A DNA stretch of 46,116 nucleotides from Gemmatimonadota bacterium (GTDB lineage: Bacteria; Gemmatimonadota; Gemmatimonadetes; Longimicrobiales; Gaopeijiaceae): assembly GCA_009841475.1 (NCBI GenBank), contig VXLT01000199.1:1-46116 (forward strand), read 5' to 3'. Below are positions 1,186-43,701 of this stretch, one piece after another. Positions within the stretch are counted from its first letter, which is position 1. Every line of letters starts with the position of its first letter. A program made the translations under genes and the position numbers. The notes under the pieces are model-generated. The model saw nothing but the letters and a program-made list of their open reading frames with translations. It did not search any database and had not been told where the DNA came from.

Positions 1186-1813
1186 CTCGACCCTGAGAGT
1201 TGTGGAGCATCCGCTGATCGAACACAAACTCTCCCTGCTGCGTGACGTCGGCACGGAGAGCCGGTACTTCCGCGAGCTGGTCAACGAGATCACGATGCTC
1301 ATGGCCTTCCGCGCGACGGAGTGCCTGGAAGGGGAGGAAGTGGCTTTCGAGACGCCGCTCGCGGCCATGCGGGCACGACGCATTCGGGAAGACAGAGTGG
1401 TGGTCGTGCCCGTACTGCGGGCCGGGCTCGGGATGGTCGAGGGGATGCTCCGAATGATTCCGGGCGCCCGCGTGGGCCACCTCGGTTTCGAACGGAACGA
1501 GGAAACGCTGGAGCCGCGCCGCTACTACGGGAAGCTGCCGCCGGAGTCGCACCAGTACAGTTTCCTGCTGGTGGATCCAATGCTCGGGACCGGCGGGACC
1601 GCGTCGGCTTCCATCGCCGATCTGAAGGAACGCGGTGTGACGCGGATCGTCTTCGTATGCCTCGTTGCGGCACCGGAGGGCGCGGGACGTCTCGCCGCGG
1701 AACACCCCGATGTTCCCGTCTATGCCGCTGCACTGGACCGTCAGCTCAACGAAATCGGCTACATCGTTCCCGGGCTGGGGGACGCGGGAGACCGCCTGTA
1801 CGGAACACTGTGA
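1178..1813 (+). CDS. upp: Uracil phosphoribosyltransferase
   Basis: 211 aa; VVEHPLIEHKLSLLRD, PRPP-binding LLVDPMLGTGGTASASI. Confidence 0.95.
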   Translation: MPDSTLRVVEHPLIEHKLSLLRDVGTESRYFRELVNEITMLMAFRATECLEGEEVAFETPLAAMRARRIREDRVVVVPVLRAGLGMVEGMLRMIPGARVGHLGFERNEETLEPRRYYGKLPPESHQYSFLLVDPMLGTGGTASASIADLKERGVTRIVFVCLVAAPEGAGRLAAEHPDVPVYAAALDRQLNEIGYIVPGLGDAGDRLYGTL

Positions 1814-1947
1814 CGGCCATGGGATGGGTGTGACCGCCAGCGCCAGGCCGCCCGGATCGAGCAGGGACGCGCTCCACAGGCTGTTTGGGCTGCCCTCACC
1901 CGATCCGCGCGGTTGATCGGCCGCTCCCGCTTTCGTTACCGTTAGTC

Positions 1948-2021
1948 GGGCCCATAGCTCAGGCGGTCAGAGCAGCGGACTCATAATCCGACGGTCGGGG
2001 GTTCAAGTCCCTCTGGGCCCA
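1948..2021 (+). tRNA. tRNA with CAT anticodon (Met or Ile2/lysidine type), CCA not encoded
   Basis: 7-bp acceptor GGGCCCA/TGGGCCC, TAGCTCAG D-arm, loop CTCATAA, GGTTCAAGTCC T-arm. Confidence 0.93.
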
Positions 2022-2110
2022 TGGCGCGGCAGTCTTGACGATCCCGGATCCCTGCCTTCATTTGACGTCGTAAACACACACGATCTTCATCCCCCGGTTG
2101 GTGGCGGCAC

Positions 2111-2476
2111 TTGTTCATTCGGCGATCGGACACACGGAACCTGCGCCGCGTCGGCGCCGCATGCATCTGCCTGCTCCACATCGGGGTAGCGGCCGTGCTC
2201 GGACCCGCCGACGCGGTTCTGGACGCCGAGCGTGCTCTTGCCCCGATCCATATCGAGTCGCCGGGTTATGAGGATTGCGCATCCCACCACGGGCATCTCT
2301 TCTGCCAGTTGGTGCGGGCGCTTTCTCTTGCGGACATTTCCCAGAGCATCAGTGTCGCGAACCCGCATGCGCCGCCGGTTCGTCATCCCGACCGGAGCCG
2401 TGAGGCGAACCACTCGTGGAGCACGCCCATAATGTCCGGCTCCGTCATCCCCCGGGGGCCGCCGGTCCTCTTCTAA
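2111..2476 (+). CDS. Small secreted His/Cys-containing protein upstream of ZnuD-like receptor
   Basis: TTG start, hydrophobic signal-like N-terminus (VGAACICLLHIGVAAVLG), then CASHHGHLFCQLVRAL; tandem with a metal receptor. Confidence 0.55.
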   Translation: MFIRRSDTRNLRRVGAACICLLHIGVAAVLGPADAVLDAERALAPIHIESPGYEDCASHHGHLFCQLVRALSLADISQSISVANPHAPPVRHPDRSREANHSWSTPIMSGSVIPRGPPVLF

Positions 2477-2645
2477 CAGCCCGCGGCAGCGACCCGCCGG
2501 CGGCAAGTGCGGCGAGGTCCCGACACGTGGGCTGCTACCCCTCCCGGGGCTCCCGGGCGACCGTTTTCCCGGGGTTCCTCCATGTCCGTGCGTCCTGCGT
2601 CGCGAAGGTCGATCAGGAGCGCGTGACCAACCTGCGGCTGTACGC

Positions 2646-4904
2646 ATGTCCAGACACCCGATTCGACGATCGCACCCGGCCATCGGAATCGCACTGATTC
2701 TGATGGCTGCGGCAGCCACGCCCGAGAGCGCCGCGTTCGCTCAGGTTGTGGAGCACAGGGGCGAGATCGAGGGTGTGGTGCGTGCGGCCGAAACGGAAGG
2801 GCCCCTCGCGGGAGCGTCCGTGTCCGTGGTTGGTGTCGGGACGTCAGCGGTTACGCACGGCGACGGCTCCTTTCACCTGACCGGCATCGCGCCGGGGAGC
2901 TACACGATTCGCGTCCAGCGGCTGGGGTATCGCAGCCGGACCATCGAGGTCACGGTCGGAGTGGACGGGGAATATGTGGAGATCGAACTCGACACTTCAC
3001 CCATTCCGCTGGAAGATTTCGTGGTCACCGCGATGCTCACGGAGCGCGGGGCCGCCGAGGCCCTTCGGCCGGTCAGCGTGATGGCCGGCGAGGAGCTGCA
3101 GCGCCGCATGACGGGGACCATTGCCGAGACGCTGGCCTCGATACCGGGGCTGGCGGAGACAAGCATGGGTCCGGCTACCTCGCGCCCCGTGATCCGGGGA
3201 TTGAGCGGCGACCGCGTCCTCATGCTGGAGGACGGGAGCCGCGTGGGCGACGTCTCCAGCGCCGGGCCCGACCATGCCACTGCGGTCGATCCGTTGGCCG
3301 CGCGGCGAATCGAAGTGGTTCGCGGTCCCGCGTCCCTGCTCTACGGAAGCAACGCCCTGGGAGGGGTCATCAACGTCATCCGCGACGAGATTCCGTCCGC
3401 GGTTCCGCATCACCCGACCGGTGCCGCATCGCTGCAGGTCCAGAGCGTGAGTGGCTCGGTGTCGGGAGGGGGTTCAGCCACGTTCGCCGTGTCGGAACGC
3501 ATTCCCCTGCGGCTGGAAGTTACGGGGCGTACGGCGGGCGACCTGCACACGCCGGCTGGCCAACTGGCCAACACCAACGGTGAAACATTGAGCGCGGGCG
3601 CAGGGGGCTCGTGGGTCGCGGGCTGGGGACACGCGGGGGCTTCCGCGCGGGGCTACCGCAACCACTATGGGATCCCCGGCGGCTTCGTGGGTGGCCATGC
3701 GGAAGGGGTGCGGATCGAGATGGAACGCGCCGCATCCAAGGTCCAGGCAGTGATCGAGCGACCCAACGCGCGGTTCCGGTCGGTCAGGTTCGACGGTGCC
3801 TACACCTGGTACCGGCACAGGGAACTGGAGTCTGCGAACATCATCGGCACGCTGTTCAGGCTGCAGACGCTGAACGCGGACATGCTGGCCCGGCACCAAG
3901 CCTGGGGCCCGTTCTCGGCTGGCGCCGTCGGAGCCCGGGTAGCCTGGGAGGACTTCGGGTACGGGGGCTCGGGCGTTGCTCGAACCGATACGCCGGACAC
4001 GCGCCGCAGCACCGTTGCGGCATACGTTTTCGAAGAGGTCGATCTGGGTGCCACGCGCGTCGAGGCGGGGCTTCGCTACGACTGGGTCTTCATCAGTCCC
4101 GCCCACGAGGATCCGGACTCCGACATCGGCAACGTCCGGGACCGCAGCTTCCATGCGGCGTCAGCCTCCCTCGGGCTCCTCTACGACATCGGCGCGGGCA
4201 TGACCGTCGGCGCAAGCCTGGCTCGTGCCTTCCGGACCCCGGATGTCACCGAACTGTTTTCAGAGGGGCCGCACCTGGCGGCCTACACCTTCGAGATCGG
4301 GAATCCTTCGCTCGAGACCGAGCAGGGTACCGGGGTCGACGTATTCGCGCGCTTTGAGTCTCCGCGACTCAGGGCGGAGATCGCCGGATTCTACAACCGG
4401 ATTCGCGGTTACATCTACGGCGAGGAGACGGGGCGGCTCAGCCGTGTCCTCCTTCCCATCTACCAGTTCCAGAGCAACGACGCGCTGCTGGCGGGATTCG
4501 AAGGCAGCCTGAACTGGGATCTCGGCCGGGGGCTGGCGCTGCAGGCGGTGGCTTCGTCCGTGAGGGGGACGCTGACCGAGACGGACCGGCCCATCCCGTT
4601 GATCCCGCCGCTGCAGGGCCATGTGGGCATCGAGTATGAACGCCCGGCGTGGTTCGTTGGGTGGGACACCGAGATGGCCACAAAGCAGGATCGCGTCGGC
4701 GCTTTCGAGTCGCCGACAAAAGGGTACACGGTGTTCAATGCGTCGGCCGGGGCACGCCTGACGGTGGGAGGACGGCTGAACGTGATCACGGTGAGCCTGA
4801 ACAACGTTACGAACAGGGAGTATCGGAACCACCTCTCACGGGTGAAGGAAATCATGCCGGAGGCCGGGAGGGGTGTCAGCCTGAGCTATCGGGTCGTCTT
4901 CTAG
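2646..4904 (+). CDS. TonB-dependent receptor, ZnuD-like (probable metal/zinc uptake), with N-terminal carboxypeptidase-like regulatory domain
   Basis: Signal peptide; CPD EIEGVVRAAETEGPLAGASVSVVGVGT; plug TSRPVIRGLSGDRVLMLEDGSRVGDVSSAGPDHATAVDPLAARRIEVVRGPASLLYGSNALGGVINV; C-terminal VSLSYRVVF. Confidence 0.88.
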   Translation: MSRHPIRRSHPAIGIALILMAAAATPESAAFAQVVEHRGEIEGVVRAAETEGPLAGASVSVVGVGTSAVTHGDGSFHLTGIAPGSYTIRVQRLGYRSRTIEVTVGVDGEYVEIELDTSPIPLEDFVVTAMLTERGAAEALRPVSVMAGEELQRRMTGTIAETLASIPGLAETSMGPATSRPVIRGLSGDRVLMLEDGSRVGDVSSAGPDHATAVDPLAARRIEVVRGPASLLYGSNALGGVINVIRDEIPSAVPHHPTGAASLQVQSVSGSVSGGGSATFAVSERIPLRLEVTGRTAGDLHTPAGQLANTNGETLSAGAGGSWVAGWGHAGASARGYRNHYGIPGGFVGGHAEGVRIEMERAASKVQAVIERPNARFRSVRFDGAYTWYRHRELESANIIGTLFRLQTLNADMLARHQAWGPFSAGAVGARVAWEDFGYGGSGVARTDTPDTRRSTVAAYVFEEVDLGATRVEAGLRYDWVFISPAHEDPDSDIGNVRDRSFHAASASLGLLYDIGAGMTVGASLARAFRTPDVTELFSEGPHLAAYTFEIGNPSLETEQGTGVDVFARFESPRLRAEIAGFYNRIRGYIYGEETGRLSRVLLPIYQFQSNDALLAGFEGSLNWDLGRGLALQAVASSVRGTLTETDRPIPLIPPLQGHVGIEYERPAWFVGWDTEMATKQDRVGAFESPTKGYTVFNASAGARLTVGGRLNVITVSLNNVTNREYRNHLSRVKEIMPEAGRGVSLSYRVVF

Positions 4905-5588: not shown

Positions 5589-8102
5589 TCAGCTCCCGGC
5601 CAGCTCCATGCGCACGTAGAGCACGCGCCCCGCGATCCCGTATGGCGACTCGGCGGGGTAGTCCATCGACCATAGCTGCGCCACGGCCCCGTCCGGCAGG
5701 CGGTTGGGAAGCCGGTCCAGGATGTTGTTGGCGCCCAGCCCAAGCCGCATGCGGTCGGCGACCCGGAGGTTGACCTCCGCATCCACGATCGAAGCGGCGT
5801 CGATCGTCACGGGCTCCTCGAAGATGAAGGGCGTAGTCACCTCGCCGATGTGCTTCAGGCTCAGCCGGGCTCCCACGCCGCCGGCCAGCCGGACGTCGGC
5901 GCCGACGCCTATCCGCTGTTTCGGCTGGGACTGTTCGATCAGGGTGGCCTGCGTCTCGCCGATGAAGTACTCGTTGCGGTTGGCCGTGATCTCGGTGCGG
6001 TTCCGGTGGTAGCTCGCCGACAGGTCGGCCACCCCCCAGGACATGTCTCGGAAGCGCCAGTTGGCGACGAGGTCGAAGCCCGACGTGCGCGTGTCGATCG
6101 CGTTGGTCCAGAACGCGACCGCGTCCACCGGGCGCCCCTGGAAGCGGGCGTCGGCACGCAGGCCGTGCGCCTGGGTCAGCGACCGGGTCAGAGCGATCGC
6201 GTTGGTCACCAGGACCCTGTAGTAGTCTGCGGACAGTTGCAGACCTGCCTGGCCGGAATAGACGAACCCGCCGGTGAGGCTTACCGACGTCTCATGGCTC
6301 AGGGAACAGGCGTCGAAGTCCGCGCAGGCGACGGGATCTTCCTCCGGGAGGAATCCGGCGCTGACCAGTCCGTCGCTGCCGCCGACGAAGCCGACGGTGT
6401 TGAAGCCGCGCTGAGCGAGCCGGGGCGCGCGGAAGCCGGTCGACACTGCCCCCCGCAGGGCCGCGCCGGGGACCCCCGTCTCGACCCGTCCGGCCACCTT
6501 CCCGGTGATCGAGGCACCGGCGTCACTGTACTGCTCGAAGCGAAGAGCCGCGCCCAGCAGTGAAGCCTCCGTCGGGCGCAGCTCGACATCGGCATAGGCG
6601 CCGAGACTGTTGCGGTCCCTCTCGCTCCCGTCGGCCGAAAGCGGGCTATAGCCGGGATACCCCTGAACCCCGCAGCTCGCGTAGGCCGAGCCACCGACAT
6701 TCAGGTGATGAGCGGCGGGGAAGCTGCCCGGGCTGTCGCTTTGTCCACACGCCCACGAAGCCCGTTCGCCCGCCTCCATCCAGTAGGAGTCACGCCGAAA
6801 GGCGCCGCCGACCGCCAGTAGTCCGGGAGCCAGGCCGAAGAAGAAGTCGCGCTTGGCGTCCGCGTTGAACGTCAGTTGGCGGACGTTCAGGGACCCGCTG
6901 CGGACATTGAGGGGTCCCGCGTTCGCGGCAATCGCCGCGCCTTCCGCACCCGGATTGTTGGCCAGGTATTCGGCTGCGTAGGAAGGGTTGATCGAGTTGG
7001 CGGCGCTGAAGGCGAACTGGCCGCTGCCATAGCCGACGCTCAGGTCGGTCGTCCACTCGCCCATGCTTCCACGGAGTCCGCCGACTGCCGAGGCGTCGGT
7101 CATCTCGGACTCCTCCACGGGGAAGAACCCGTCGGGGTACACGTAGGACACGTTGCGCGGGACCCAGTCCGCCTTGCGGTAGAGACCGTCGGAGACCGCG
7201 GTCCGGTCGGAATACCCGCCGAAGGCGTAGAACTCGAACGATTCGCCGGCGGGCAGCAAGGCATTGAGCATGAGCGCCGCGGATTCATAGTCGGGCTCAC
7301 CGTTGCGCTGGAGCCGGATCACCTTCCCGCCGTTCGCGCAGGGGGCATAGTCCGGATTCGGGCCGAAGCATGTCGGAGCCTCGCTGGCCCGGTTCGCAAC
7401 CTCCTGCTGCGCGACCTCCACGGTGAGGTTGAGGAAGCCGCGCCCGAGGGGGACCCCCGCGTTGGCCGAGGTGAGCAATCGTGCGCCGTCACCCCGGGAG
7501 GTGCGGCCCAGATACGACCGCGCGCTCACGCCACCCGCGTCGTCCTTGAGCACGATGTTGATCACGCCGGCGATCGCGTCGGAGCCGTACTGCGAAGCCG
7601 CGCCCTCGCGCAGGACCTCGATGCGCTTGATCGCATGAAGGGGTATCGCACGCAGGTCGGTCCCGGTGGTGCCCTGTCCGGCGGCGGCGAGCACCTTCGC
7701 AAAGGCGACGGGGTGGCGGCGCTTGCCGTTCACCAAGACCAGCACCTGGTCGCCGTTCATTCCCCGCAGCGTGGCGACGTGTAGCGCGGCGCCGTCCCCG
7801 GCCGAGAGCCGCGTGGAGTTGAACGAGGGTGCGATGCGTCCGAGGACCTCGCCCAGGTCGACCTCGCCGAGCCGGGCGATCTCTTCCGCGCCGTAGACGT
7901 CGACGGGGACGGGCAGGGAAGCGGGATCGACGATTCCGGCGCGTGAGCCGACGACGACAACGATTCCCTCAACGGTGGTCACCGTGTCCGGCGGGATTTG
8001 CGCAGACGCGGGGGTCGCCGGGATCAGTGCCATGAGCAGGGAAGCGGTGAAGGCGCAGCGGAGCCGGACTCCGGGTTGCGCCGGGAGTGACGATCCGTCC
8101 AT
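5589..8102 (-). CDS. TonB-dependent receptor
   Basis: Signal peptide, plug TLRGMNGDQVLVLVNGKRRHPVAF and IKRIEVLREGAASQYGSDAIAGVINIVLK; 837 aa barrel-length protein. Confidence 0.9.
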   Translation of the reverse strand: MDGSSLPAQPGVRLRCAFTASLLMALIPATPASAQIPPDTVTTVEGIVVVVGSRAGIVDPASLPVPVDVYGAEEIARLGEVDLGEVLGRIAPSFNSTRLSAGDGAALHVATLRGMNGDQVLVLVNGKRRHPVAFAKVLAAAGQGTTGTDLRAIPLHAIKRIEVLREGAASQYGSDAIAGVINIVLKDDAGGVSARSYLGRTSRGDGARLLTSANAGVPLGRGFLNLTVEVAQQEVANRASEAPTCFGPNPDYAPCANGGKVIRLQRNGEPDYESAALMLNALLPAGESFEFYAFGGYSDRTAVSDGLYRKADWVPRNVSYVYPDGFFPVEESEMTDASAVGGLRGSMGEWTTDLSVGYGSGQFAFSAANSINPSYAAEYLANNPGAEGAAIAANAGPLNVRSGSLNVRQLTFNADAKRDFFFGLAPGLLAVGGAFRRDSYWMEAGERASWACGQSDSPGSFPAAHHLNVGGSAYASCGVQGYPGYSPLSADGSERDRNSLGAYADVELRPTEASLLGAALRFEQYSDAGASITGKVAGRVETGVPGAALRGAVSTGFRAPRLAQRGFNTVGFVGGSDGLVSAGFLPEEDPVACADFDACSLSHETSVSLTGGFVYSGQAGLQLSADYYRVLVTNAIALTRSLTQAHGLRADARFQGRPVDAVAFWTNAIDTRTSGFDLVANWRFRDMSWGVADLSASYHRNRTEITANRNEYFIGETQATLIEQSQPKQRIGVGADVRLAGGVGARLSLKHIGEVTTPFIFEEPVTIDAASIVDAEVNLRVADRMRLGLGANNILDRLPNRLPDGAVAQLWSMDYPAESPYGIAGRVLYVRMELAGS

Positions 8103-27972: not shown

Positions 27973-28071
27973 TCGTCCCTAGAGTGCGGGTTTCACGACG
28001 GTTCGCGCGAAACCCCGCGGACGTAGGAGATCAGTGGAGGTTGAATGTATAGATGGTGCAGGGGTGGGAGG

Positions 28072-29592
28072 ATGAGGGGTATTGCGCCGCGTTCAGGCCG
28101 CGCGGGCGGCTCGGCAGTGGCGGTGCTTGCAGCATTCGCGTGGTCCGGCGCAGTGGCGTCGGCGCAGCGCCCAACCCCCGCCCCCGATCTGGGGAACGGG
28201 CCGGTGCTGCTGAGCGCGATCGCCGAGGCGGCGGTCGAACGCAACCGGGAGATCGTCGACGCCGAGTACGAACTGGCGCTCGCCAACGGGCAGGTCTCGG
28301 AGGCATGGAGCGACTTCTACCCCAGCGTGAGCCTTTCCTCCTCCTACACGCGCAACGTCGCGCCGCAGGTGAGCTTCCTGCCGGCGCAGATCTTCGATCC
28401 CTCGGCCGCCCAGGGCGACTTCATCCCGATTCAATTCGGGGCCGACAACATCTGGAACCTCTCGGTGAACCTGGAGCAGACGCTCATGGACCCGCAGGTC
28501 TTCGTCGGCGTCGGGGCGGCCGCCCGCTTCCGCGGCCTGCAGCGGGAAGTCCTGCGCGGTCGGACACAGCAGATCGTCACGCGAGTCCGGGTCGCTTTCT
28601 ACGATCTGCTGCTCGCGCAGGAGGAGGTGCGCCTGACCGAGAACTCGCTGAAGCGCGTGCGGCGGTCTCTCGAAGAGACCCGGGCCATGGAAGAGGCCGG
28701 AGTGGCCGAGGCCTACGACGTTCTTCGCCTGGAGGTGGAGCTCGCCAACCTCGAGCCGAACCTGAGACGCGCGGAAAACCGCCTCCGCGCGGCCCGGCGC
28801 ACGTTGGCGTCCGAACTGGATCTGGATCCGGAGTCGGAGATCGAGGTGGCGGGGGAACTGGCACTGATGGACCTCGACGACTTCGCAGCCAACTCCCCGG
28901 GAAACCGGGACATCCTGGCGTTCAGCGGCGAGGTGCTGGCGGAAGAGCCGGATTTGGAGCTGCTCCTCCGGCGGGGCAGGGCCAATCGATCCGACATCCG
29001 CCAGCTCGAGCTCACGGAAACGCTCAGGAGGACCGAATTGCGCATCGAACAGGCCGACTACCTGCCGAGCCTCAGCGCATTCGGCAGCTACGGACTGGCC
29101 GCTCAACAGAATGGCCTGCCGGTCTTCTTCGGTACGAGTGACCAGCGCGGCACGACGAAACAGGTCGGGTTCAGGGTGAGCATGCCCATCTTCTCGGGCT
29201 TTCGCGAAAACGCCCGCATCTCGCAGCGGCAGGCGGCGTTGCGCCAGGCCGAGACCCAGACGCGCCTGGCGGCCGACCAGGCCGAGATCCAGCTGCGCAA
29301 CCTGGTCGACGAGGTGCGCGAAGCGCGGTCGCGGACACGGGGCCAGCGCCTGGCGGTGTCGCAGGCGCGCCGCGGGTACGAAATGGCGAGCGCCCAGTAC
29401 CGGGAAGGGCTGGCAAGCCAGCTCGAACTCACGGACGCAGAGGTCGCCCTGAGGCAGAGCGAGTTCAACTATGCGCAGGCGGTGTACGACTATCTTGCGA
29501 CGCGGGCACGACTTGACGAGGCTGCGGGGACCGTGCCGCTGGTAGACGTCGCCATTGACCATGGCGCCGGCACCGGAGGGGACAGAGGATGA
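28072..29592 (+). CDS. TolC family outer membrane efflux protein
   Basis: Signal peptide; two OEP-like repeats with coiled coil; first gene of TolC-MFP-RND operon. Confidence 0.92.
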   Translation: MRGIAPRSGRAGGSAVAVLAAFAWSGAVASAQRPTPAPDLGNGPVLLSAIAEAAVERNREIVDAEYELALANGQVSEAWSDFYPSVSLSSSYTRNVAPQVSFLPAQIFDPSAAQGDFIPIQFGADNIWNLSVNLEQTLMDPQVFVGVGAAARFRGLQREVLRGRTQQIVTRVRVAFYDLLLAQEEVRLTENSLKRVRRSLEETRAMEEAGVAEAYDVLRLEVELANLEPNLRRAENRLRAARRTLASELDLDPESEIEVAGELALMDLDDFAANSPGNRDILAFSGEVLAEEPDLELLLRRGRANRSDIRQLELTETLRRTELRIEQADYLPSLSAFGSYGLAAQQNGLPVFFGTSDQRGTTKQVGFRVSMPIFSGFRENARISQRQAALRQAETQTRLAADQAEIQLRNLVDEVREARSRTRGQRLAVSQARRGYEMASAQYREGLASQLELTDAEVALRQSEFNYAQAVYDYLATRARLDEAAGTVPLVDVAIDHGAGTGGDRG

Positions 29593-30734
29593 ACGGAAGA
29601 CGGATGGGAGTGGTGTCCGTCGGGCCGGGACGGCTCGGGGGGCCGGCGGGCTGGACGCTCGTTGCGCTGGCCCTGGCGGTTGCCTGCCTAAGCGGCTGCG
29701 GTGGCGAGGGGCAGGGCCAGACGGAGGAGCCCCTGGAGGCGTTCGCGCGGATCGTGAATGTGGAGGTCGACACCGTAAGGCCTCGCGGCTTCACCCAGGT
29801 CGTCCGGCTCACCGGGGTGGCGCGCGCGATGCACGATGTAGTGGTGTCCGCGGAGGAGGGGGGCGTGGTCCGGCGGATCGTGCGGGACAAGGGCCGTCCG
29901 ATCTCCGCCGGCCAGGCGATCCTGCAGCTCGACGACGCCGTCCTCAAGGCGCAGGTGGCGACCGCGACCGCCCAGGCTCAATTGGCCGACGAGGTCTGGG
30001 AGCGCCGCCGGAAGCTCTACGAGGAGGACGGGATCGGCTCCGAGCTGAGCTACCTGGAGGCGAAGTACGCCGCCGAGCAGGCGCGCGGGAGCCTCGACGC
30101 ACTCGAAGAGCGGCTCGCACGCACGACCGTCCGTGCCCCGATCAGCGGAATCCTGGAAGACCGTCTCGTCGAGGTGGGCGCGATGGTTTCCCCGGGAACG
30201 CCGGTGGCAAGGATCGTCCATACCGACTCCATCAAGATCCTCGCCGGGGTGCCGGAGCGGTACGCGCTGGATGTGACCGAAGGAGCCGCGGCGACCGTTC
30301 GTTTCAGCGTTCTGCCCGACGAGCGCTTCGAGACCTCGGTCAGCTATGCGGGGGCGACCGTCGACCCTCAGAGCCGCACCTTCGCCGTGGAACTGATGCT
30401 CCCCAATCCGGGAGCGCGCATCAAGCCGGAGATGATCGCGGACATGGAGATCGTGCGCGAAGAGGTGGACGAGGCAATCGTAGTGTCTCAGCAGGCTCTG
30501 GTGTCGATGGAGGAGGGGTACGTCGTGTTCGTGGTGGAGGGGACGGGCGACACCGCGGTGGCGGTTATTCGACACGTGGAGGTTTCCGTCACCCAGGGAA
30601 ACGATGTCGTGGTCGGATCCGGGCTCGAAGCCGGTGACCGTCTCGTGATTGTCGGGCAGCAGGGGCTGACCGCGGGCGACCGGGTACGGGTCGTGGGCAG
30701 CCGCGCGGAGCCGGGGGGCGGGGAGGAGCGATGA
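29589..30734 (+). CDS. RND efflux periplasmic adaptor (MFP), lipoprotein
   Basis: Lipobox LSGC; GVVRRIVRDKGRPISAGQAILQLDD; RTTVRAPISGILEDRLVEVGAMVSPGTPV; ATGA overlap with preceding gene. Confidence 0.93.
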   Translation: MNGRRMGVVSVGPGRLGGPAGWTLVALALAVACLSGCGGEGQGQTEEPLEAFARIVNVEVDTVRPRGFTQVVRLTGVARAMHDVVVSAEEGGVVRRIVRDKGRPISAGQAILQLDDAVLKAQVATATAQAQLADEVWERRRKLYEEDGIGSELSYLEAKYAAEQARGSLDALEERLARTTVRAPISGILEDRLVEVGAMVSPGTPVARIVHTDSIKILAGVPERYALDVTEGAAATVRFSVLPDERFETSVSYAGATVDPQSRTFAVELMLPNPGARIKPEMIADMEIVREEVDEAIVVSQQALVSMEEGYVVFVVEGTGDTAVAVIRHVEVSVTQGNDVVVGSGLEAGDRLVIVGQQGLTAGDRVRVVGSRAEPGGGEER

Positions 30735-33700
30735 GCAAGGGCACCGACGGCCGGCGCGCCCCGGCAGGCCGGACCTTCAAGGAGTTCCGGCTGACCTCGC
30801 TCGCAGTCGAGCATTCTACCTCGGTGCTGGTCCTCTTCGTCTTCGTCACGATCTCGGGACTGCTCGCCTACCGGTCGATTCCGAAGGAGTCCTTCCCCGA
30901 ATTCCAGATGGCCATGATCGCGGTGAACACGGTGTATCCCGGGGTTTCGCCATCCGACATCGAGAGCCTCGTCACGCGCAAGATCGAGGAGGAGCTGAAT
31001 ACGATCTCGGACGTGAAGGAGCTCACCTCGACTTCCGTGGAGGGCTACTCCTCGGTGGTGGTCGAGTTCGAGACCGGGACCGACCTGAACGAGGCGCTCC
31101 AGCAGGTCCGCGAGAAGGTGGACCTGGCCCGCCCGGAGCTCCCCTCCGACTCGGAGGACCCGTTCATAATGGAGTTCGACATGAGCGACATCCCCTTCAT
31201 GCAGGTGAACCTGTCGGGAGGGTACGGGCTCGTGCGCCTGAAGGAGCTGGGCGAGGAACTGCAGGAACGGATCGAGTCGCTTCCGTCGATCCTGCGCGTC
31301 GGTCTGCGGGGCGGACTGGAACGCCAGGTCAAGGTCGAGATCGACCTGTCGCGGCTGCAGTACTACAACGTCTCCTTCGACGACGTGATCAGCGCGATCC
31401 GCCAGGAGAACGTGAACATCCCCGGCGGTTCGATCGACGTGAGCGGAGTCAAGTACCTGGTACGCGTGGACGGCGAATTCGACGACCCCACGCTGATCCG
31501 GAATCTCGTAGTCACGACGGTGGGCGGCCGGCCGATCTACGTGCGCGACATCGCGACGGTGGAGTTCGGCTTTGCCGAGCGGGAGACCTATGCGCGCCTC
31601 GGGGACGAGCCGGTGGTAACCCTGGACGTCGTCAAGCGGTCCGGAGAGAACATCATCGCTACCTCGGCCGCGGTCAGGGCCGAGATCGAAGCGATGCGCC
31701 CGCTCTTCCCCCCGTCCACGGTGGTCGTCATCACCTCCGACATGTCCGACGACATCGGCATGATGGTGAACAGCCTGCAGAACAACATCATCTCGGGCCT
31801 GATCCTGATCGTGGGAGTTCTGCTCTTCGTTCTCGGTCTGAGGACCTCGATCTTCGTCGCGATCTCGATCCCCACCTCGATGTTCCTCTCCTTCATCGTG
31901 ATCCAGCTGCTCGGGGTCTCGATGAACATGGTGGTGCTCTTCTCGCTCATCCTCGCGCTGGGGATGCTCGTCGACAACGCAATCGTGATCGTCGAGAACA
32001 TCTACCGCTTCATCGAAGAGGGCTGGTCCCGCCGGGAAGCGTGCAAGAAGGCCACCGGTGAGGTGGCCGTCCCCGTGATTGCGGCCACCGCCACCACTCT
32101 GGCAGCCTTCACGCCGCTGCTCTTCTGGCCGGGCATGGCGGGCGAGTTCATGAAATACCTGCCGCTGACCCTCATCATCACGCTGTCGAGCTCGCTGTTC
32201 GTGGCGCTGGTCATCGTCCCCACCCTCTGCTCGATCTTCCTCGATCCCGAGGGCGGGAGACCCCGCAAGCTCAACCGAAACGGCCTGATCCTGCTGTCCC
32301 TCGCCGGAGCTGTCGCGCTGGCGATCGTCGCCGCGGCGAATCCCCTGACCGCCGGCCTGCTCATCGTCGCCGCGGCCCTGGCCTGGCTTCTCCACAGATT
32401 CCTGCTGGACCGGATCAGCCGCGTATTCATGGGGCATGGACTGCCCCGCCTGGTGGCATGGTACGAGAAGCGGCTCAAGTGGGCGCTCAACAACCGGGCC
32501 ATCGTGCTGGCCGGTTCAATCGTGGCACTGCTCGGCACGATCGGCATGTACGCCAACTTCGCCGCCCCGGTGGAGTACTTTCCCGAAGACATCCCGCCGG
32601 CTGTTCTGTTCGTGTCGGTCGACGCGCCGGTGGGTACTTCGGCGGAGGTCACCAACGAGTACGCGCATCGCCTGCAGGCCGAAGTCGGCCGGATCAGCGG
32701 CATTTCCGACGCGGAGACGATCGTCACGACGGTGGGCGCCACGGGAGGCGGCGGTCCGATGGAGGGCTCGGGTCCGTCCGGTCCCGAGGCGGCCCGCATC
32801 ACGATGAGCATGGTCGACTTCCAGGAACGGCAGTTCGATGTCTTCCAGACGCTCGCCACGATGCAGGAGCGGATCGGCACCGGTGTGGCGGGCGCGGAGG
32901 TGCGGGTGGACCAGGTCAGCGAGGGGATGCCCTCGGGGCCGCCGGTCAACATCGAGATCGCGGGCGAGGATCCCATCCTTCTGCAGGAGCTCGCCGGCGA
33001 GGCGATCGATCTGATCGAGGCGGCCCCGGTGTACCCGCGCCTGGTCGGGCTGAAGAGCGACATGGACGACGCCCGCCCCGAACTGCGCGTCGAGGTGGAC
33101 AGGGAAAAGGCGAGCCTCTACGGGCTTTCCACCAACGATGTCGGCTTCCTGGTCAGGAGCGCGATCAACGGTCTCGAAGCAGCCAAATACAGAACAGGCA
33201 ACGAGGAGTACGACATTGTCGTGCGGCTGCGCGAGGAAGACAGGGAGGAACTCACGCAGCTCGCCGACCTCACGGTGTTTACCGAGGGGCGGCAGATCCC
33301 GCTTCTGTCGGTCGCCGGGTGGACCGTTGAAGAGGGGTACAGCGCGATCCGGCGCAAGGACATGGACCGGATGGCCACGGTGAGCGCCGAGGTGGCCGCC
33401 GGCTACAACAGCAACGCCGTCCGCGCCGAGGTCGAGGCCGTGCTCGGGGACTTCACCGCTGCGCTCCCGCCCGGCTACTCGCTCGAGTTCACGGGCGAGC
33501 AGGAGGAGCAGGAGGAGGCGTCCGCCTTTCTCGCCGGCGCCTTCCTCGCCGCGCTGATGCTGATCGCCCTGATCCTGGTGACGCAGTTCAACTCCGTCAT
33601 CAAGCCCGTGATCATTCTTTCGTCGGTGATCATGTCCACGATCGGTGTTCTGATCGGATTGATGGTTTTCCGCATGCCGTTCGTGATCATAATGACCGGG

Positions 33701-34204
33701 GTCGGTGTGATTTCGCTGGCCGGGATCGTGGTGAACAACGCCATCGTCCTGATCGACTACATCGACGTTCTGCGCAAACGCGACGGGCTTAGCACCTACG
33801 AAGCACTGGTGCAGGGGGGCAAGACCAGGCTGCGGCCCGTGCTGCTGACCGCGACCACCACCGCGCTCGGCCTGGTGCCGCTCGCGATCGGGCTCAACTT
33901 CGACTTCTTCGGCCTGTTCTCCAGTCTCTCGCCGGAGTTCTTCTGGGGTGGCGAGCAGGCCGCCTGGTGGGGACCGATGGCCGTGGCGGTGATCGTCGGG
34001 ATTCTCTTCGCCACCTTTCTGACCCTTGTCCTGGTGCCGGTCATGTACAGCCTCGTGGATGACCTTGTGGGCCTGTTCAGGCGCCCGCGGCCGGGCGAGG
34101 AGGACGAGGACTCGCGCGAGGACCCCGGGTTCTCCATTGTTGTGTCGCCGCTTCCCGCGAGCCCCGAAGCCGAGCCGGAAGTGGCCGCAATCGTCTCTCG
34201 CTGA
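30731..34204 (+). CDS. RND efflux transporter permease (AcrB/HAE-like)
   Basis: 1157 aa; YPGVSPSDIESLVTRKIEEEL; LALGMLVDNAIVIVENIYRF; GVGVISLAGIVVNNAIVLIDYID; ATGA overlap. Confidence 0.95.
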   Translation: MSKGTDGRRAPAGRTFKEFRLTSLAVEHSTSVLVLFVFVTISGLLAYRSIPKESFPEFQMAMIAVNTVYPGVSPSDIESLVTRKIEEELNTISDVKELTSTSVEGYSSVVVEFETGTDLNEALQQVREKVDLARPELPSDSEDPFIMEFDMSDIPFMQVNLSGGYGLVRLKELGEELQERIESLPSILRVGLRGGLERQVKVEIDLSRLQYYNVSFDDVISAIRQENVNIPGGSIDVSGVKYLVRVDGEFDDPTLIRNLVVTTVGGRPIYVRDIATVEFGFAERETYARLGDEPVVTLDVVKRSGENIIATSAAVRAEIEAMRPLFPPSTVVVITSDMSDDIGMMVNSLQNNIISGLILIVGVLLFVLGLRTSIFVAISIPTSMFLSFIVIQLLGVSMNMVVLFSLILALGMLVDNAIVIVENIYRFIEEGWSRREACKKATGEVAVPVIAATATTLAAFTPLLFWPGMAGEFMKYLPLTLIITLSSSLFVALVIVPTLCSIFLDPEGGRPRKLNRNGLILLSLAGAVALAIVAAANPLTAGLLIVAAALAWLLHRFLLDRISRVFMGHGLPRLVAWYEKRLKWALNNRAIVLAGSIVALLGTIGMYANFAAPVEYFPEDIPPAVLFVSVDAPVGTSAEVTNEYAHRLQAEVGRISGISDAETIVTTVGATGGGGPMEGSGPSGPEAARITMSMVDFQERQFDVFQTLATMQERIGTGVAGAEVRVDQVSEGMPSGPPVNIEIAGEDPILLQELAGEAIDLIEAAPVYPRLVGLKSDMDDARPELRVEVDREKASLYGLSTNDVGFLVRSAINGLEAAKYRTGNEEYDIVVRLREEDREELTQLADLTVFTEGRQIPLLSVAGWTVEEGYSAIRRKDMDRMATVSAEVAAGYNSNAVRAEVEAVLGDFTAALPPGYSLEFTGEQEEQEEASAFLAGAFLAALMLIALILVTQFNSVIKPVIILSSVIMSTIGVLIGLMVFRMPFVIIMTGVGVISLAGIVVNNAIVLIDYIDVLRKRDGLSTYEALVQGGKTRLRPVLLTATTTALGLVPLAIGLNFDFFGLFSSLSPEFFWGGEQAAWWGPMAVAVIVGILFATFLTLVLVPVMYSLVDDLVGLFRRPRPGEEDEDSREDPGFSIVVSPLPASPEAEPEVAAIVSR

Positions 34205-38505: not shown

Positions 38506-38545
38506 GAGGGCAACTCAAGGCCAGCTCAAGAGCAGCCCAAGGATG

Positions 38546-38579
38546 TTGAATTTTCACCGATCAATGCGTATCTTCGGTG
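38546..38579 (+). promoter_or_regulatory. Candidate sigma70-like promoter with overlapping inverted repeat (possible BlaI-type operator)
   Basis: TTGAAT-17 nt-TATCTT; CACCGA-N13-TCGGTG spans the -10 element. Confidence 0.4.
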
Positions 38580-38640
38580 CAATCGGGGGCCGAGCCCGCC
38601 TCGACCGTATCCCGTCCACGGCTGAAAAGGGGGAAGAGCA

Positions 38641-39024
38641 ATGGCCGAGATGCCGCCGCTCAGCCGGCGAGAGCGACAGGTGATGGACATCATCCACGAG
38701 CTGGGGGGAGCGACAGCCGTCCAGATACGCGAGCGCATGTCCGATCCGCCCACGGATTCCGCCGTCCGTTCCGTGCTGCGCATTCTGCTCCGGAAGGGGC
38801 ACCTGGTGAAGGAGTATGACGGCCCGCGATTCGTCTACTCGTCCCGCATTCCCGCGCGCGCCGCCCGCCGCAGCGCGATGAGTCACGTCCTCAAGACCTT
38901 CTTCGGAGGTTCGGTGGAGGGAGCCGTGGCCACGCTCATCGCACTGGAAGACGGCGCGCTTGAGCCCGACGAACGCGAGCGCATCATGGCAATGATCGAA
39001 AGGGCCTCGGAGGAAGGACGATGA
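38641..39024 (+). CDS. BlaI/MecI/CopY family transcriptional repressor
   Basis: LSRRERQVMDIIHELGGATAVQIRERMSDPPTDSAVRSVLRILLRKGHLVKE; followed by M56 gene with ATGA overlap. Confidence 0.93.
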   Translation: MAEMPPLSRRERQVMDIIHELGGATAVQIRERMSDPPTDSAVRSVLRILLRKGHLVKEYDGPRFVYSSRIPARAARRSAMSHVLKTFFGGSVEGAVATLIALEDGALEPDERERIMAMIERASEEGR

Positions 39025-41729
39025 ACTCCTTCACATGGGTGGCCGACGCGGCGCCGCTTCCCGGTTTCCTGATCCGCGTGACGGTCGTGCTGGCTACGGG
39101 TCTGGTCTTCGCCTGGCTCATTCGGAAGAGGTCGGCCCAGGTCCGCCACCGTCTCTGGACCGCAACCATGCTGCTCCTCCTGCTCCTGCCGGCGTTGTCG
39201 TTCTGGGCTCCACAGTGGGACGTGCCCCTGCTGCCCGCGCCGTCAGGCACGGGTGTGGAGGTGGAGACCACCGACTTGCCGGCGCCCTTTGCGGCATGGA
39301 CTCCGGTCTCGTCGGCGAACGTGCCCGAAGCGGAGCCGGCACGCGGACACGAAGCCGGGCTGGCCGCCGAGCGCGTTCTCCGGCCGGCAAGTGGACACGG
39401 CCGGGAGCCCGCAAGCGCGGACAACGGGGAATCGGCGGTTGGCTCCGGAGCCGGATCCGCGACCGGGCGGAGTGCGAGACCCGCCAGACCCCTGGTACTC
39501 TGGGCCATCGGCTGCCTGGTCGGCCTGATCTCCCTGGCTGCCGGACATCTTCGCTTCCGCACGCTCGTTCGTGGGGCACGCCCCCTTGCGGACCCCCGCT
39601 GGATCCGTGACCTGCGCGCCGCCGGATCCCGCCTGGGCCTCCGGGGCGACGTACGGCTGCTGGTCAGCGATACCGCCGGCACCCCGATGACCGGCGGGTT
39701 CTGGAGGCCGGTGATTCTTCTTCCGGCGTCTTCGGTGACCTGGGATTCGGCGCGGCGGACGGTCGTGCTGATGCACGAGCTGGTCCATGTCCGCCGGCGC
39801 GACGCGCTCCGCCAGCTGATGGGCGGGGTCGTGCTCGCCCTTTACTGGTTCCACCCGCTCAGCTGGCTGGCTTTCAGGCTCGCGGCAACGAGCCGGGAGG
39901 AGGCGTGCGACGAACGGGTGCTGGAACTTGGGTCGCGGCCTTCGGAGTACGCGCGGCACCTCGTGTCGCTGGCCACCGGGACCCGTACCGATCGTTTGCC
40001 GGTTGCCGCACTGTCGATGGCGCGGCAGTCCCCTTCAAGGCTGGAGAAGAGAATCATGGCCATACTCAGGCCTCGTCGTCCCCGCCCGAGCGCGCTGGCG
40101 ACAACGGCGCTGGTTGCGGCGATCGCCGCCCTGGCCGTTTCCGTGGCGGTTACCCATCCGGTTCAAAGGGAAAGCGCCGACGCCCTCGCCATCCTGGCGG
40201 ATCCACCCGTGGGATTGCCGGACGCCAAGGTGGGGTTGGAGGACACCCCGGTGGGGGAAGCGGTCGACGAACAAGCACGCGGTGCGGCGGTTACGCCGGC
40301 CGAAGGCCCCTCGGAAGCACCCGGGTCCGGCCCGCCGATGAGCAACCCTGGCGACCCGGCCGACGACCCGGCCGATGGCTCCGGCGAAAGAGGTGTCGAG
40401 GCGGGTGCGGCAGGATCGCACGGGGAACCGGCGATGGAAAATGGGACTCCGCCAGTCACCGAGCCCGGCGGCGGTACCGAGTCTCTCGCGGGTACTCCCG
40501 CTACAGTCTCCCCGGATGCCCCATTCCAGGATGCCCCGCCACTTCGTGACCTGCCGGACATCGACTGCGACACCCTGCCCCAAGGAGTTGGGAATGCGTC
40601 CGGAGTGGGCACGACAAGGTCCAGCCCGGATTCCCCTCCGCGCGATGTGGTCCGGGTGGTCATGGAAACCGTTGACGGCGTGCGCCTCTGCATGCGCATC
40701 CGGACGGATGCGGTCCTGGAGGGAGGCGAACTCCGCAGCCTGGCCCCGGACGACTGGATCCTCCTCGAGTCCGAGGGAGACAGGGTGCATCGGCTGATCA
40801 TTCGGAACGTAAACGGCGGCTTCGAGCACTGGTGGAGCGTGGGAGGCGAGAACCGGCCCTTTGACGACCAGGCGAGGGAGTGGCGGGACGGGATGCTGGC
40901 CGTTCTTGGAGGGCACCTGGAGATCGGCCGGATCCGGCGCGAGGTTTCGGACCTCCAGGAACAGATCTCCCATCACCGGGCCGTGGTAGCCGGCCTGCAG
41001 GGGCAGGCTGCCCATGAGCGGGATGTCGTCGCAAGCCTCCAAGGCCAGGTTTCGTACTACCAGGGGGTCGTTGCGGGTCTGCTGGACCAGATCACCTATC
41101 ACCAGGGTGTCGTCGCCGGGATGCGGGACGATATCGCCTATCATCGGAGCATCGTCTCCGGCCTGAGGGACGGGATCACCTATCACCGGGCCCGGGTCGC
41201 GGCCCTTCAGGAGGTGAAGTCTTCCTACGAGGCTCAGATTACGGCGATAGTCCCGCGGCTGAAGACTGCGGACGCCCGCACAAGGCATTCCATCGAGGCG
41301 AGCATCCGCGGCTTGGAGGAGCGCATAAAGGAAACCGAGGAGCAGATCGAGGCATACGGCCTGGGCGGCAAGGTTGCGAACATCAATGCCGAGATCAGGG
41401 AGTACAGTCTGGATGCGAAGGTGCGTAACCTCGAACAGCGGATCCAGGCGTATGAGTTGCAGGCCGGGCTGCAGAAGATCGAAGCGGAGATCGAAGAGCA
41501 GTCCAAACGCCTCGACGACGTGACCCGGCGCGCCGAAGAAGCGCTCCGGGCACGGGAGGCGCGAAGCGGAGAAGTTGAACGGGAGGTCGATGCCTACTAC
41601 CTGGACCACAAGGTCGCGAGACTGGAACAACGGATTCGGGAACTGGGTGCCGACGAAGCCGTGGCGAGGATCGAGCAATCGATCGAGGAGGCGAGAAGGC
41701 AGCTGCTTGAGTTGATTGGACGACTTTGA
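39021..41729 (+). CDS. M56 (BlaR1-like) membrane metallopeptidase with long repeat-built coiled-coil C-terminus
   Basis: HExxH in VVLMHELVHVRRRDALRQ, EEACDERVLELGSRPSEYARHLV; TM segment after protease domain; Pro/Gly-rich linker; coiled coil. Confidence 0.92.
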   Translation: MNSFTWVADAAPLPGFLIRVTVVLATGLVFAWLIRKRSAQVRHRLWTATMLLLLLLPALSFWAPQWDVPLLPAPSGTGVEVETTDLPAPFAAWTPVSSANVPEAEPARGHEAGLAAERVLRPASGHGREPASADNGESAVGSGAGSATGRSARPARPLVLWAIGCLVGLISLAAGHLRFRTLVRGARPLADPRWIRDLRAAGSRLGLRGDVRLLVSDTAGTPMTGGFWRPVILLPASSVTWDSARRTVVLMHELVHVRRRDALRQLMGGVVLALYWFHPLSWLAFRLAATSREEACDERVLELGSRPSEYARHLVSLATGTRTDRLPVAALSMARQSPSRLEKRIMAILRPRRPRPSALATTALVAAIAALAVSVAVTHPVQRESADALAILADPPVGLPDAKVGLEDTPVGEAVDEQARGAAVTPAEGPSEAPGSGPPMSNPGDPADDPADGSGERGVEAGAAGSHGEPAMENGTPPVTEPGGGTESLAGTPATVSPDAPFQDAPPLRDLPDIDCDTLPQGVGNASGVGTTRSSPDSPPRDVVRVVMETVDGVRLCMRIRTDAVLEGGELRSLAPDDWILLESEGDRVHRLIIRNVNGGFEHWWSVGGENRPFDDQAREWRDGMLAVLGGHLEIGRIRREVSDLQEQISHHRAVVAGLQGQAAHERDVVASLQGQVSYYQGVVAGLLDQITYHQGVVAGMRDDIAYHRSIVSGLRDGITYHRARVAALQEVKSSYEAQITAIVPRLKTADARTRHSIEASIRGLEERIKETEEQIEAYGLGGKVANINAEIREYSLDAKVRNLEQRIQAYELQAGLQKIEAEIEEQSKRLDDVTRRAEEALRAREARSGEVEREVDAYYLDHKVARLEQRIRELGADEAVARIEQSIEEARRQLLELIGRL
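40965..41216 (+). repeat. Six in-frame 42-bp (14-aa) tandem repeats inside the M56 gene
   Basis: ISHHRAVVAGLQGQ/AAHERDVVASLQGQ/VSYYQGVVAGLLDQ/ITYHQGVVAGMRDD/IAYHRSIVSGLRDG/ITYHRARVAALQEV. Confidence 0.92.
41355..41690 (+). repeat. 48-bp (16-aa) periodic coiled-coil repeats inside the M56 gene (three adjacent units plus two further units)
   Basis: YGLGGKVANINAEIRE/YSLDAKVRNLEQRIQA/YELQAGLQKIEAEIEE at 41355-41498 and YYLDHKVARLEQRIRE/LGADEAVARIEQSIEE at 41595-41690. Confidence 0.75.
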
Positions 41730-41850
41730 ATCTCCATGGGAGGCTGGCGCCGAAAAGGGACCCCTTGTTAGGCTACGGGCCGTTCCCGAGGTGGGTCCGG
41801 AGGTAGGCTGCCGGGTCCCGCGAAGCACACCCGCACGGAGTCGGAGAGCC

Positions 41851-43701
41851 ATGTCCCGCAGATTGATCCTGACGTGCGTCCTGATGGTGGCCGCGCATGC
41901 CGCCGCCCCCCACGCCGCCACCGCCCAGACCACCCAGAAGCCCGTCCTCCACGGCAAGGACTGGATGGCGATCACCGGCAAGCCGCTGGGAGCGACCGCC
42001 GGCGCGATGATGTTCCTGCGCGGGGGCAACGCGGTCGACGCGGCCTGTGCCATGCTCGGCGCCACAGCCACGATGTGGGACGTGCTGGGCTGGGGCGGCG
42101 AGACCCAGGCGCTCATCTACAACCCCGAAACCGGGAGGGTCATCGGGATCAACGCGCTGGGGGCCGCTCCGTCGGGGGCCACGCCCGAGTTCTTCCGCGA
42201 GCAGGGGATGGAGATTCCGCCCGCGTACGGACCCCTCGCCGCGGTGACGCCCGGCACCCCCGGCGGCCTGATGGTGATGCTCGCGGAGTACGGGAGCCTG
42301 AGCCTCGCCGAGGTGCTGGAGCCCGCGATCGACATGGCGCGCGGCTACCCGATCGAGGCCCAGGCCGCCAACGCGATCGAGCGCGAGAAGGAGCGGATCG
42401 CGGGGTGGCCGTACTCGAAGGAGGTCTTCCTGCCCCACTACGGGGAGGAGCGCGCCGCCCCCTCGCCCGGCGAGATCTTCGTGCAGGAGGACCTCGCCCG
42501 CACCCTGGAGAAGCTCGTCGAGACCGAGGCGGCGGCGCTGGCGGCGGGGGCCTCGCGCCGGGACGCGATCATGGCCGCCTACAACCGCTTCTATCGCGGC
42601 GACATCGCCGAGGAGTTTGTTCGCTCGTCGAACGAAGTCGGCGGCCTTCACACCATGGAGGACCTCGCCAACTGGCAGGTGTATCTCGAAGAACCCGTCA
42701 TGACCTCCTACAAGGGGATCGACGTCTACAAGCTGACGACGTGGGTGCAGGGGCCCGTTCTGCTGCAGGCGCTGAATATTCTGGAGGGGCTGGACGTTGC
42801 GTCGATGGGGTACAACTCGACCCGGTATGTCCACGCGCTCTACCAGGCCATGAACCTGGCGTTCGCCGACCGCGATTTCTACTACGGCGATCCCTACTAC
42901 CCGCCGGTAGAGCCGGTCGCCGGGCTGCTGTCGAAAGAGTACGCGGCCTCGCGCGCCGCCGGGATCGACTGGGAGAGGAACGACCCGGATGTGCTGCCGG
43001 GCGACCCGTACCCGTTCCAGGGGGGCACGAACCCGTTCCTGCACCTCATCGAGTCGTGGAACGAGCAGCCGGTTGCCACCCCCGAGTCGGCGGGGATGGA
43101 CTACGAAGACGCCTTCTACGCCGGTACGACGTCGATCCAGGCTGCGGACGCCGACGGCTGGGTGGTGTCGGTCACGCCGTCCGGCGCATGGATTCCGGCG
43201 GTGATCGCGGGCAGGACGGGGATCGGGATGAGCCAGCGCATGCAGAGCTTCGTGCTGGACGAGCGCGCGGGGCCGTACAACGTGGTGGAACCCGGGAAGC
43301 GGCCGCGCGCGACGCTCACCCCCTCGCTCGCGCTGAAGGATGGGCGGCCCTTCCTCTCCTTCGCTGTGCAGGGCGGCGACGGGCAGGACCAGAACCTCCT
43401 CCAGTTCTTCCTCAACGTGGTCGAGTTCGGGATGAACGTGCAGCAGGCGGCCGAGGCGGCCAACTTCAACAGCTACCAGATGCGGAGCTCCTTCGGCGCG
43501 CACGAGTCGCAGCCGGGGAGGCTGCTCCTGAACGAGGGGGTGCCCGCGTGGGTGCGCACCGAGCTGGAGGCGATGGGGTACGAGCTGACCTTCGCCGCGC
43601 GGACCTCCGGCCCGATCAACGCGATCTTCTTCGATGCCGCGACCGGGACGATGTGGGGCGGTTCCAGCAATCACGGGGAGGACTACGGGATCGCATGGTG
43701 A
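41851..43701 (+). CDS. Gamma-glutamyltransferase-like Ntn hydrolase (divergent paralogue)
   Basis: Signal peptide; FLRGGNAVDAACAMLGATATMWDVLGWGG; processing-site-like YAGTTSIQAADADGWVVSVTPS. Confidence 0.87.
   Translation: MSRRLILTCVLMVAAHAAAPHAATAQTTQKPVLHGKDWMAITGKPLGATAGAMMFLRGGNAVDAACAMLGATATMWDVLGWGGETQALIYNPETGRVIGINALGAAPSGATPEFFREQGMEIPPAYGPLAAVTPGTPGGLMVMLAEYGSLSLAEVLEPAIDMARGYPIEAQAANAIEREKERIAGWPYSKEVFLPHYGEERAAPSPGEIFVQEDLARTLEKLVETEAAALAAGASRRDAIMAAYNRFYRGDIAEEFVRSSNEVGGLHTMEDLANWQVYLEEPVMTSYKGIDVYKLTTWVQGPVLLQALNILEGLDVASMGYNSTRYVHALYQAMNLAFADRDFYYGDPYYPPVEPVAGLLSKEYAASRAAGIDWERNDPDVLPGDPYPFQGGTNPFLHLIESWNEQPVATPESAGMDYEDAFYAGTTSIQAADADGWVVSVTPSGAWIPAVIAGRTGIGMSQRMQSFVLDERAGPYNVVEPGKRPRATLTPSLALKDGRPFLSFAVQGGDGQDQNLLQFFLNVVEFGMNVQQAAEAANFNSYQMRSSFGAHESQPGRLLLNEGVPAWVRTELEAMGYELTFAARTSGPINAIFFDAATGTMWGGSSNHGEDYGIAW

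Follow-up and report, generated by a model that had tools for sequence, protein, structure and literature searches.

What does a BlaR1-type pair of repressor and membrane protease sense when its protease carries no penicillin-binding domain? This question is raised by two genes in a 46,116-nucleotide stretch of DNA from a Gemmatimonadota bacterium (GenBank assembly GCA_009841475.1, contig VXLT01000199.1, positions 1 to 46,116; hereafter the window), a locus that lies on contig 340 of the 4.18-Mb draft genome. The blaI gene (38641–39024, +), encoding a 127-residue winged-helix repressor of the BlaI/MecI/CopY type, and an M56 gene (39021–41729, +), encoding a 902-residue metalloprotease with a C-terminal ectodomain, share an ATGA overlap at 39021–39024. 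PF03965 (Penicillinase_R) matched the whole of BlaI with 79.6 bits (cut-off, 22.6), and PF05569 (Peptidase_M56) matched the protease with 129.9 bits (cut-off, 31), together with the model blaR1_generic at E = 3e-23. These matches bear out a preliminary description of the locus, which had noted a BlaI-type repressor overlapping an M56 HExxH protease. The scores of BlaI against the NCBIfam models for CopY, BlaI, and MecI were weak and far under their cut-offs, and a PDB sequence search with BlaI gave no match strong enough for residue-level transfer of the proteolysis site. Adjacency or overlap of blaI and the M56 gene is kept in nearly all homologs with the same ectodomain for which upstream DNA was available. 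Judged from its sequence, the pair is a regulator of the BlaR1 type whose ectodomain is of a new kind.

Hydropathy revealed four transmembrane-like segments in the M56 protein, namely TM1, TM2, and TM3 (residues 16–34, 45–63, and 157–175; 39066–39545, +) and TM4 (residues 359–377; 40095–40151, +), with the protease domain located between TM3 and TM4. The zinc motif HELVH (residues 252–256; 39774–39788, +) and the motif E293xxxD297 (39897–39911, +), which follows 37 residues past H256, were both invariant across the aligned M56 proteins. The same spacing of 37 residues between the second histidine of HEXXH and the glutamate of EXXXD is found in Bacillus licheniformis BlaR1 (PMC3356374). With both motifs, the BlaR1 spacing, and four membrane segments present, the signalling half of the protein therefore looks intact. 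By analogy with BlaR1, its zinc site would be cytoplasmic and its ectodomain periplasmic.

The C-terminus comprises 525 residues and begins with a linker rich in Pro, Ala, Gly, Asp, and Glu (residues 380–515; 40158–40565, +). A motif scan past TM4 gave zero occurrences of SxxK and [SY]xN and one stray [KRH][TS]G tripeptide, positioned inside the coiled coil. No transpeptidase was matched by the sequence of the M56 protein in Pfam, NCBIfam, or PDB, and Foldseek found no transpeptidase fold for the predicted ectodomain, which matched only coiled coils. The coiled-coil matches in PDB (SMC, Rad50, tail needle, and chemoreceptors) and the weak tail matches in Pfam and NCBIfam (SMC_prok_B and scaffold proteins) were dismissed as generic coiled-coil similarity. 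Structure prediction and the Pfam and PDB searches thus detected no penicillin-binding fold, and the claim of the preliminary description that the C-terminus lacks this domain held, as did its outline of a rich linker followed by a repeat-built coil. We accordingly did not file the protein as a BlaR1 or MecR1. Because the pair is without a beta-lactam-binding domain, its signal is very probably not a beta-lactam, which supports what had been proposed; a mechanical, envelope, or protein–protein signal, also put forward there, is possible. In this respect the architecture is not exceptional within the genome, which contains 21 M56 and 13 BlaI matches. Apart from one short M56 match on contig C191 that was left out of this reading, 20 M56 proteins were readable, and a transpeptidase domain was present in none of them; the C-termini of the paralogs carried a 6-bladed propeller, a TonB_C domain, a TonB-plug-like domain, or an unassigned sequence. 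Lacking a beta-lactam domain is hence ordinary for the M56 proteins of this genome. What is new here is the combination of a beta domain and its cysteine pair with a helical-repeat tail, together with the predicted operator and the evidence for exchange.

The beta domain is an undescribed module of about 90 residues (540–636; 40638–40928, +), for which strands were predicted at residues 544–612 and a helix at 616–636. In a comparison of the C-terminal tail across 121 genomes of the family and the named genome contigs, this beta-rich segment was the portion retained everywhere, and the coiled coil varied. The emphasis of the preliminary description, which had placed the coil above a "short beta-rich segment", is thereby reversed. 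The alignments gave a short motif, LCM...W-x-V/I-x-G...PFD..A..WRD.M, and a full pattern, LCM ... D/G-S-W-x-V-L-E-S ... H-R-L ... W-S-V/I-x-G ... PFD ... A ... WRD-x-M. The AlphaFold2 model, a confident prediction (pLDDT 85.9, pTM 0.78), showed a beta meander over residues 544–612 and a helix over residues 616–636. No significant match was obtained with Pfam profiles (best E 0.027, in 2 of 30 members), none with PDB profiles (best E 0.42), and none for the fold against PDB using Foldseek (best E 0.22). Members of this domain group are M56 proteins of Gemmatimonadota, Acidobacteriota, and one Rhodothermaceae metagenome-assembled genome (MAG), and the closest named relatives of the M56 protein are from Gemmatimonadota MAGs. 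The domain was detected in 70 of 395 genomes of a phylum-wide sample, and its single occurrence in the present genome is in the M56 protein of the pair. One member record, L067, carries the label Gammaproteobacteria; for both ectodomain and neighbour gene, however, it equals the family genomes L050 and L051 in score or is 100% identical to them, and its label or binning looks wrong.

A cysteine pair, C516 and C557 (40566–40691, +), accompanies the beta domain and is predicted to form a periplasmic disulfide. These are the sole two cysteines past TM4, and nearly all homologs likewise have exactly two, separated by 19 to 52 residues; in distant relatives the second cysteine is displaced by about three positions and the pair is retained. 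Over 60 distinct copies of the domain, both cysteines were present in 51 and neither in 7, and the remaining 2 are free-standing copies whose lone upstream cysteine falls within an apparent signal peptide. Such an all-or-none pattern is typical of a disulfide, which may be structural or may act as a switch.

Following the beta domain, the tail is composed of seven 14-residue helical repeats (residues 637–734; 40929–41222, +), recognized by autocorrelation at lag 14, and of 16-residue helical repeats (residues ~773–900; 41337–41720, +), recognized at lag 16 and from predicted helices. Both signals were well over those of shuffled controls, and a 42-bp tandem repeat was also seen in the DNA at 41059–41187. 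The helical repeats total approximately 264 residues. Past the core, homologs have between about 58 and 322 residues, and in distant M56 relatives an alpha-solenoid of SDxE-type repeats, as read from sequence, lies after or before the beta domain. Free-standing secreted copies of the beta domain without a protease also exist, several of them adjoining an M56 gene. Since the tail varies in length and is replaced by a solenoid in distant relatives, it is, at the level of sequence comparison, an exchangeable helical-repeat arm, and the coiled coil was not borne out as the defining ectodomain. The secreted proteins that combine a beta domain with an alpha-solenoid and lack a protease were located in L144 (4229–5338), L150 (2780–3907), L151 (2617–3801), and L145 (1779–2948), and those of L144 and L151 adjoin an M56 gene; they may be soluble partners or targets. 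Within residues 651–734 (40971–41222), most 14-residue repeats have His or Tyr in equivalent places (HHR, HER, YYQ, YHQ, and YHR), and SHERHV is frequent in the repeats of relatives; it is conceivable that this ladder is metal- or pH-responsive. In L079/L084 (5932–8598), the M56 tail enters a stretch that looks out of frame, which is probably a frameshift or an assembly error.

BlaI and the ectodomain point to different relatives. BlaI is 88–91% identical to its counterparts in L135, L137, and L064, whereas it shares 77% with that of L065. The order is inverted from TM4 onward, which opens a segment resembling L065: the identity of TM4 is 83% to L065 against 45–52% to L064/L135/L137, and that of the beta domain is 93% against 47–60%. 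Topology tests for BlaI and the protease core rejected the grouping with L065 (p-AU 0.0015), and those for the ectodomain rejected the grouping with L064/L135/L137 (p-AU 1.6e-21); with the M56 core alone, neither relative was favoured (AU p 0.37). This difference in grouping between ectodomain and BlaI is most simply read as an exchange of the ectodomain between lineages of the genus, with a breakpoint somewhere between blaI and TM4.

Upstream of blaI, we identified a predicted BlaI operator, TGTTGAATTTTCACCG (38544–38559, +), whose core TGTTGAWTTTTCA occupies 38544–38556. In the clade, TGTTGAWTTTTCA is common to the upstream regions of blaI genes, where it lies in promoter-like surroundings and often forms the palindrome TGTTGAWTTTTCARCA; relative to this palindrome, the right half is degenerate in the present locus. 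The operator overlaps the first, −35-like member of two promoter-like hexamers read from the sequence, TTGAAT (38547–38552) and TATCTT (38569–38574), which are separated by a 16-nt spacer (38547–38574, +); the hexamer spacing recurs in orthologs, and the hexamers themselves fall below a strict consensus scan. The operator gave 1 match in the window, compared with 0.41 expected when 2 mismatches were allowed. An inverted repeat had previously been proposed as the operator. It does exist, with arms at 38552–38560 and 38574–38582, and its left arm is overlapped by the TGTTGAWTTTTCA element; orthologs, however, do not retain it but conserve TGTTGAWTTTTCA, and it was rejected as an operator. The exact core TGTTGANTTTTCA occurs at two sites in the 4.18-Mb genome, here and at C210:4185, where it stands upstream of a propeller lipoprotein gene adjoining another BlaI/M56 pair on contig 210. 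A relaxed search of the genome returned 13 matches, compared with 11 for the reversed control, from which no regulon beyond the blaI/M56 loci can be claimed. In the distant solenoid-type M56 relatives, the operator-like sequences differ. The contig 210 locus (C210, L011, 147–6843) is of the BlaI/M56-propeller type and has two TGTTGA-type operators, one before each of two propeller genes; its M56 frame is apparently broken into overlapping open reading frames (1471–3009 and 2816–3649). In L138, blaI is split over two frames (5998–6376), probably by a frameshift or an assembly error.

The neighbouring genes were compared in those genus relatives that share the ectodomain and have sufficient flanking sequence. 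The order glnRS, blaI, M56, and gamma-glutamyltranspeptidase is kept in L064, L065, L135, L137, and L138. In the window, the last of these genes encodes a gamma-glutamyltranspeptidase-family protein (41851–43701, +; PF01019, 336 bits), and its co-transcription with the pair is possible; the family includes glutathione hydrolases. A hydrolase and an M3-type peptidase often come after it in the genus relatives. The intervening DNA (41730–41850) holds a conserved element, CTGGCGCCGAAA...TAGGCTAC, located ahead of the gamma-glutamyltranspeptidase gene in genus relatives, which is probably a promoter. In the sister genus, the next gene downstream encodes a Peripla_BP_6 lipoprotein, and in the Acidobacteriota members L072, L074, L075, and L089 a TlpA/ResA-like thioredoxin lipoprotein fused to DUF3738/TIGR03435 is encoded directly 3′ of M56. 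Two of the three downstream contexts are thus thiol-related. This link is no more than suggestive, since the four Acidobacteriota homologs are closely related and amount to a single case. Among the neighbours examined, no bla or mec gene was found, and plasmids yielded no related DNA or protein. Farther upstream, a tripartite efflux operon comprising an OEP outer-membrane protein, an HlyD-type fusion protein, and an AcrB-type pump occupies 28045–34204.

These observations lead us to favour, as the probable reading, a regulated-proteolysis switch of the BlaR1 type in which a different sensor responds to an envelope partner or to thiol state. In the scheme that we infer, which covers repression, cleavage of BlaI, the periplasmic location, and the nature of the signal, BlaI dimers would bind the TGTTGAWTTTTCA site of the blaI promoter and thereby keep their own operon repressed. 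As expected from its homology with BlaR1, the M56 protein would cross the inner membrane with four helices, which would put the zinc site on the cytoplasmic side and the C-terminus on the periplasmic side. The sensor would be the disulfide-linked beta domain held on a flexible linker, and the repeat-built helical tail would serve as an adjustable stalk or a partner-binding arm. A changed envelope partner or thiol state may then allow the ectodomain to move TM4 and activate the protease, upon which BlaI would be inactivated and the operon derepressed. The signal would most likely be a protein or the redox state of the envelope and not a beta-lactam. Several observations weigh against this reading. 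The role of the cysteine pair may be structural and nothing more. Exact copies of the operator core are limited to this locus and one other BlaI/M56 pair and thus give no sign of a regulon of the pair beyond autoregulation. The gamma-glutamyltranspeptidase gene is preceded by a conserved element of its own, shows no operator, and is about 3.5 kb away in one relative, for which reasons it was kept as a possible target and not as a proven one. The TlpA proteins of the Acidobacteriota are 78–84% identical and represent one association, and in other lineages the downstream gene encodes a periplasmic binding protein or a propeller protein.

Of the other explanations, the beta domain could be a receptor that binds a small molecule, a peptide, or a wall fragment and thus acts as a direct chemical sensor. 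Its invariant tryptophan and the conserved SWLVLES/PFD patch, the binding-protein lipoprotein downstream in the sister genus, and the precedent of BlaR1 speak for such a role, which we nevertheless rate as possible but rather unlikely, as no known binding domain was matched by sequence or fold. The C516–C557 disulfide could itself be the switch, its reduction or formation directly gating the protease; these sole two cysteines past TM4 are kept or lost as a pair, and a thiol-disulfide oxidoreductase lies directly downstream in Acidobacteriota and a gamma-glutamyltranspeptidase in the genus. Structural disulfides are, however, common in periplasmic domains and give the same pattern, some relatives have neither cysteine, and the thiol-related neighbours are not universal, so that this explanation appears unlikely. 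A mechanical sensor, as first raised in the preliminary description, in which the coil bridges the periplasm and senses distance, load, or contact with the peptidoglycan or outer membrane, would suit the roughly 264 residues of helical repeats and the recurrence of repeat-built tails among relatives, but a tail of about 58 to 322 residues, with a solenoid or the opposite domain order in distant relatives, is a poor fit to a fixed ruler, and we regard this explanation as unlikely too. It is quite improbable that the two proteins do not form a sensor–repressor pair, with the protease acting on another substrate and the ectodomain serving as an adaptor: the excess of M56 over BlaI matches in the genome implies that some M56 proteins may work without BlaI, but in this locus, and in almost every homolog that shares the ectodomain and has its upstream DNA covered, the two genes adjoin or overlap. 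A diverged penicillin-binding fold that evades detection and senses a beta-lactam or a peptidoglycan precursor might be imagined from the BlaR1-like N-terminal half; with neither SxxK nor [SY]xN present, and with a small beta meander and a helix predicted in place of a transpeptidase, it is very improbable indeed.

The favoured reading, a BlaR1-type switch with a different sensor, can be extended to a more specific proposal that we hold to be rather doubtful at present, namely that the beta domain and its cysteine pair constitute a periplasmic module reporting the thiol/disulfide or protein-folding state of the envelope, which has been exchanged between lineages and fitted with interchangeable helical-repeat tails. 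If true, this would be a redox-gated pathway of the BlaR1 type, for which we know of no precedent. BlaR1 and MecR1 have been studied as antibiotic sensors, and all readable M56 proteins of this genome carry other ectodomains; in the open literature, we found nothing specific on BlaI/M56 pairs with other ectodomains or on what such M56 proteins sense. The locus offers a defined and testable module, consisting of the domain of about 90 residues with its cysteine pair, a predicted operator, and a thioredoxin-like neighbour in one clade. As an example, it would illustrate how exchange of the C-terminus rewires a single proteolytic switch to new signals.

Similar arrangements are found at several distances from the present pair. 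The M56 paralogs of the same genome have the same protease with an exchangeable C-terminus, and the blaI promoters of two propeller paralogs also contain a similar operator, although the ectodomains of these paralogs are unrelated and do not contain the beta domain. The solenoid-type M56 proteins of Gemmatimonadota and the secreted copies (e.g., L144, L146, L147, and L150) possess a distantly related beta domain, most of them with the cysteine pair, but the M56 proteins have a solenoid for the coiled coil and sometimes a reversed domain order. The repressor belongs to the winged-helix Penicillinase_R family together with CopY/TcrY and BlaI/MecI, differing from the CopY, BlaI, and MecI of the NCBIfam models by its low scores. 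The best-known counterparts are BlaR1–BlaI and MecR1–MecI of Staphylococcus aureus and B. licheniformis, in which a BlaI-family repressor likewise adjoins an M56 gluzincin with four transmembrane segments, HEXXH, EXXXD 37 residues further on, and a C-terminal domain past TM4. Unlike these systems, in which that domain is a penicillin-binding sensor, the present pair has neither SxxK nor YxN nor a matching fold, and carries a beta domain and helical repeats.

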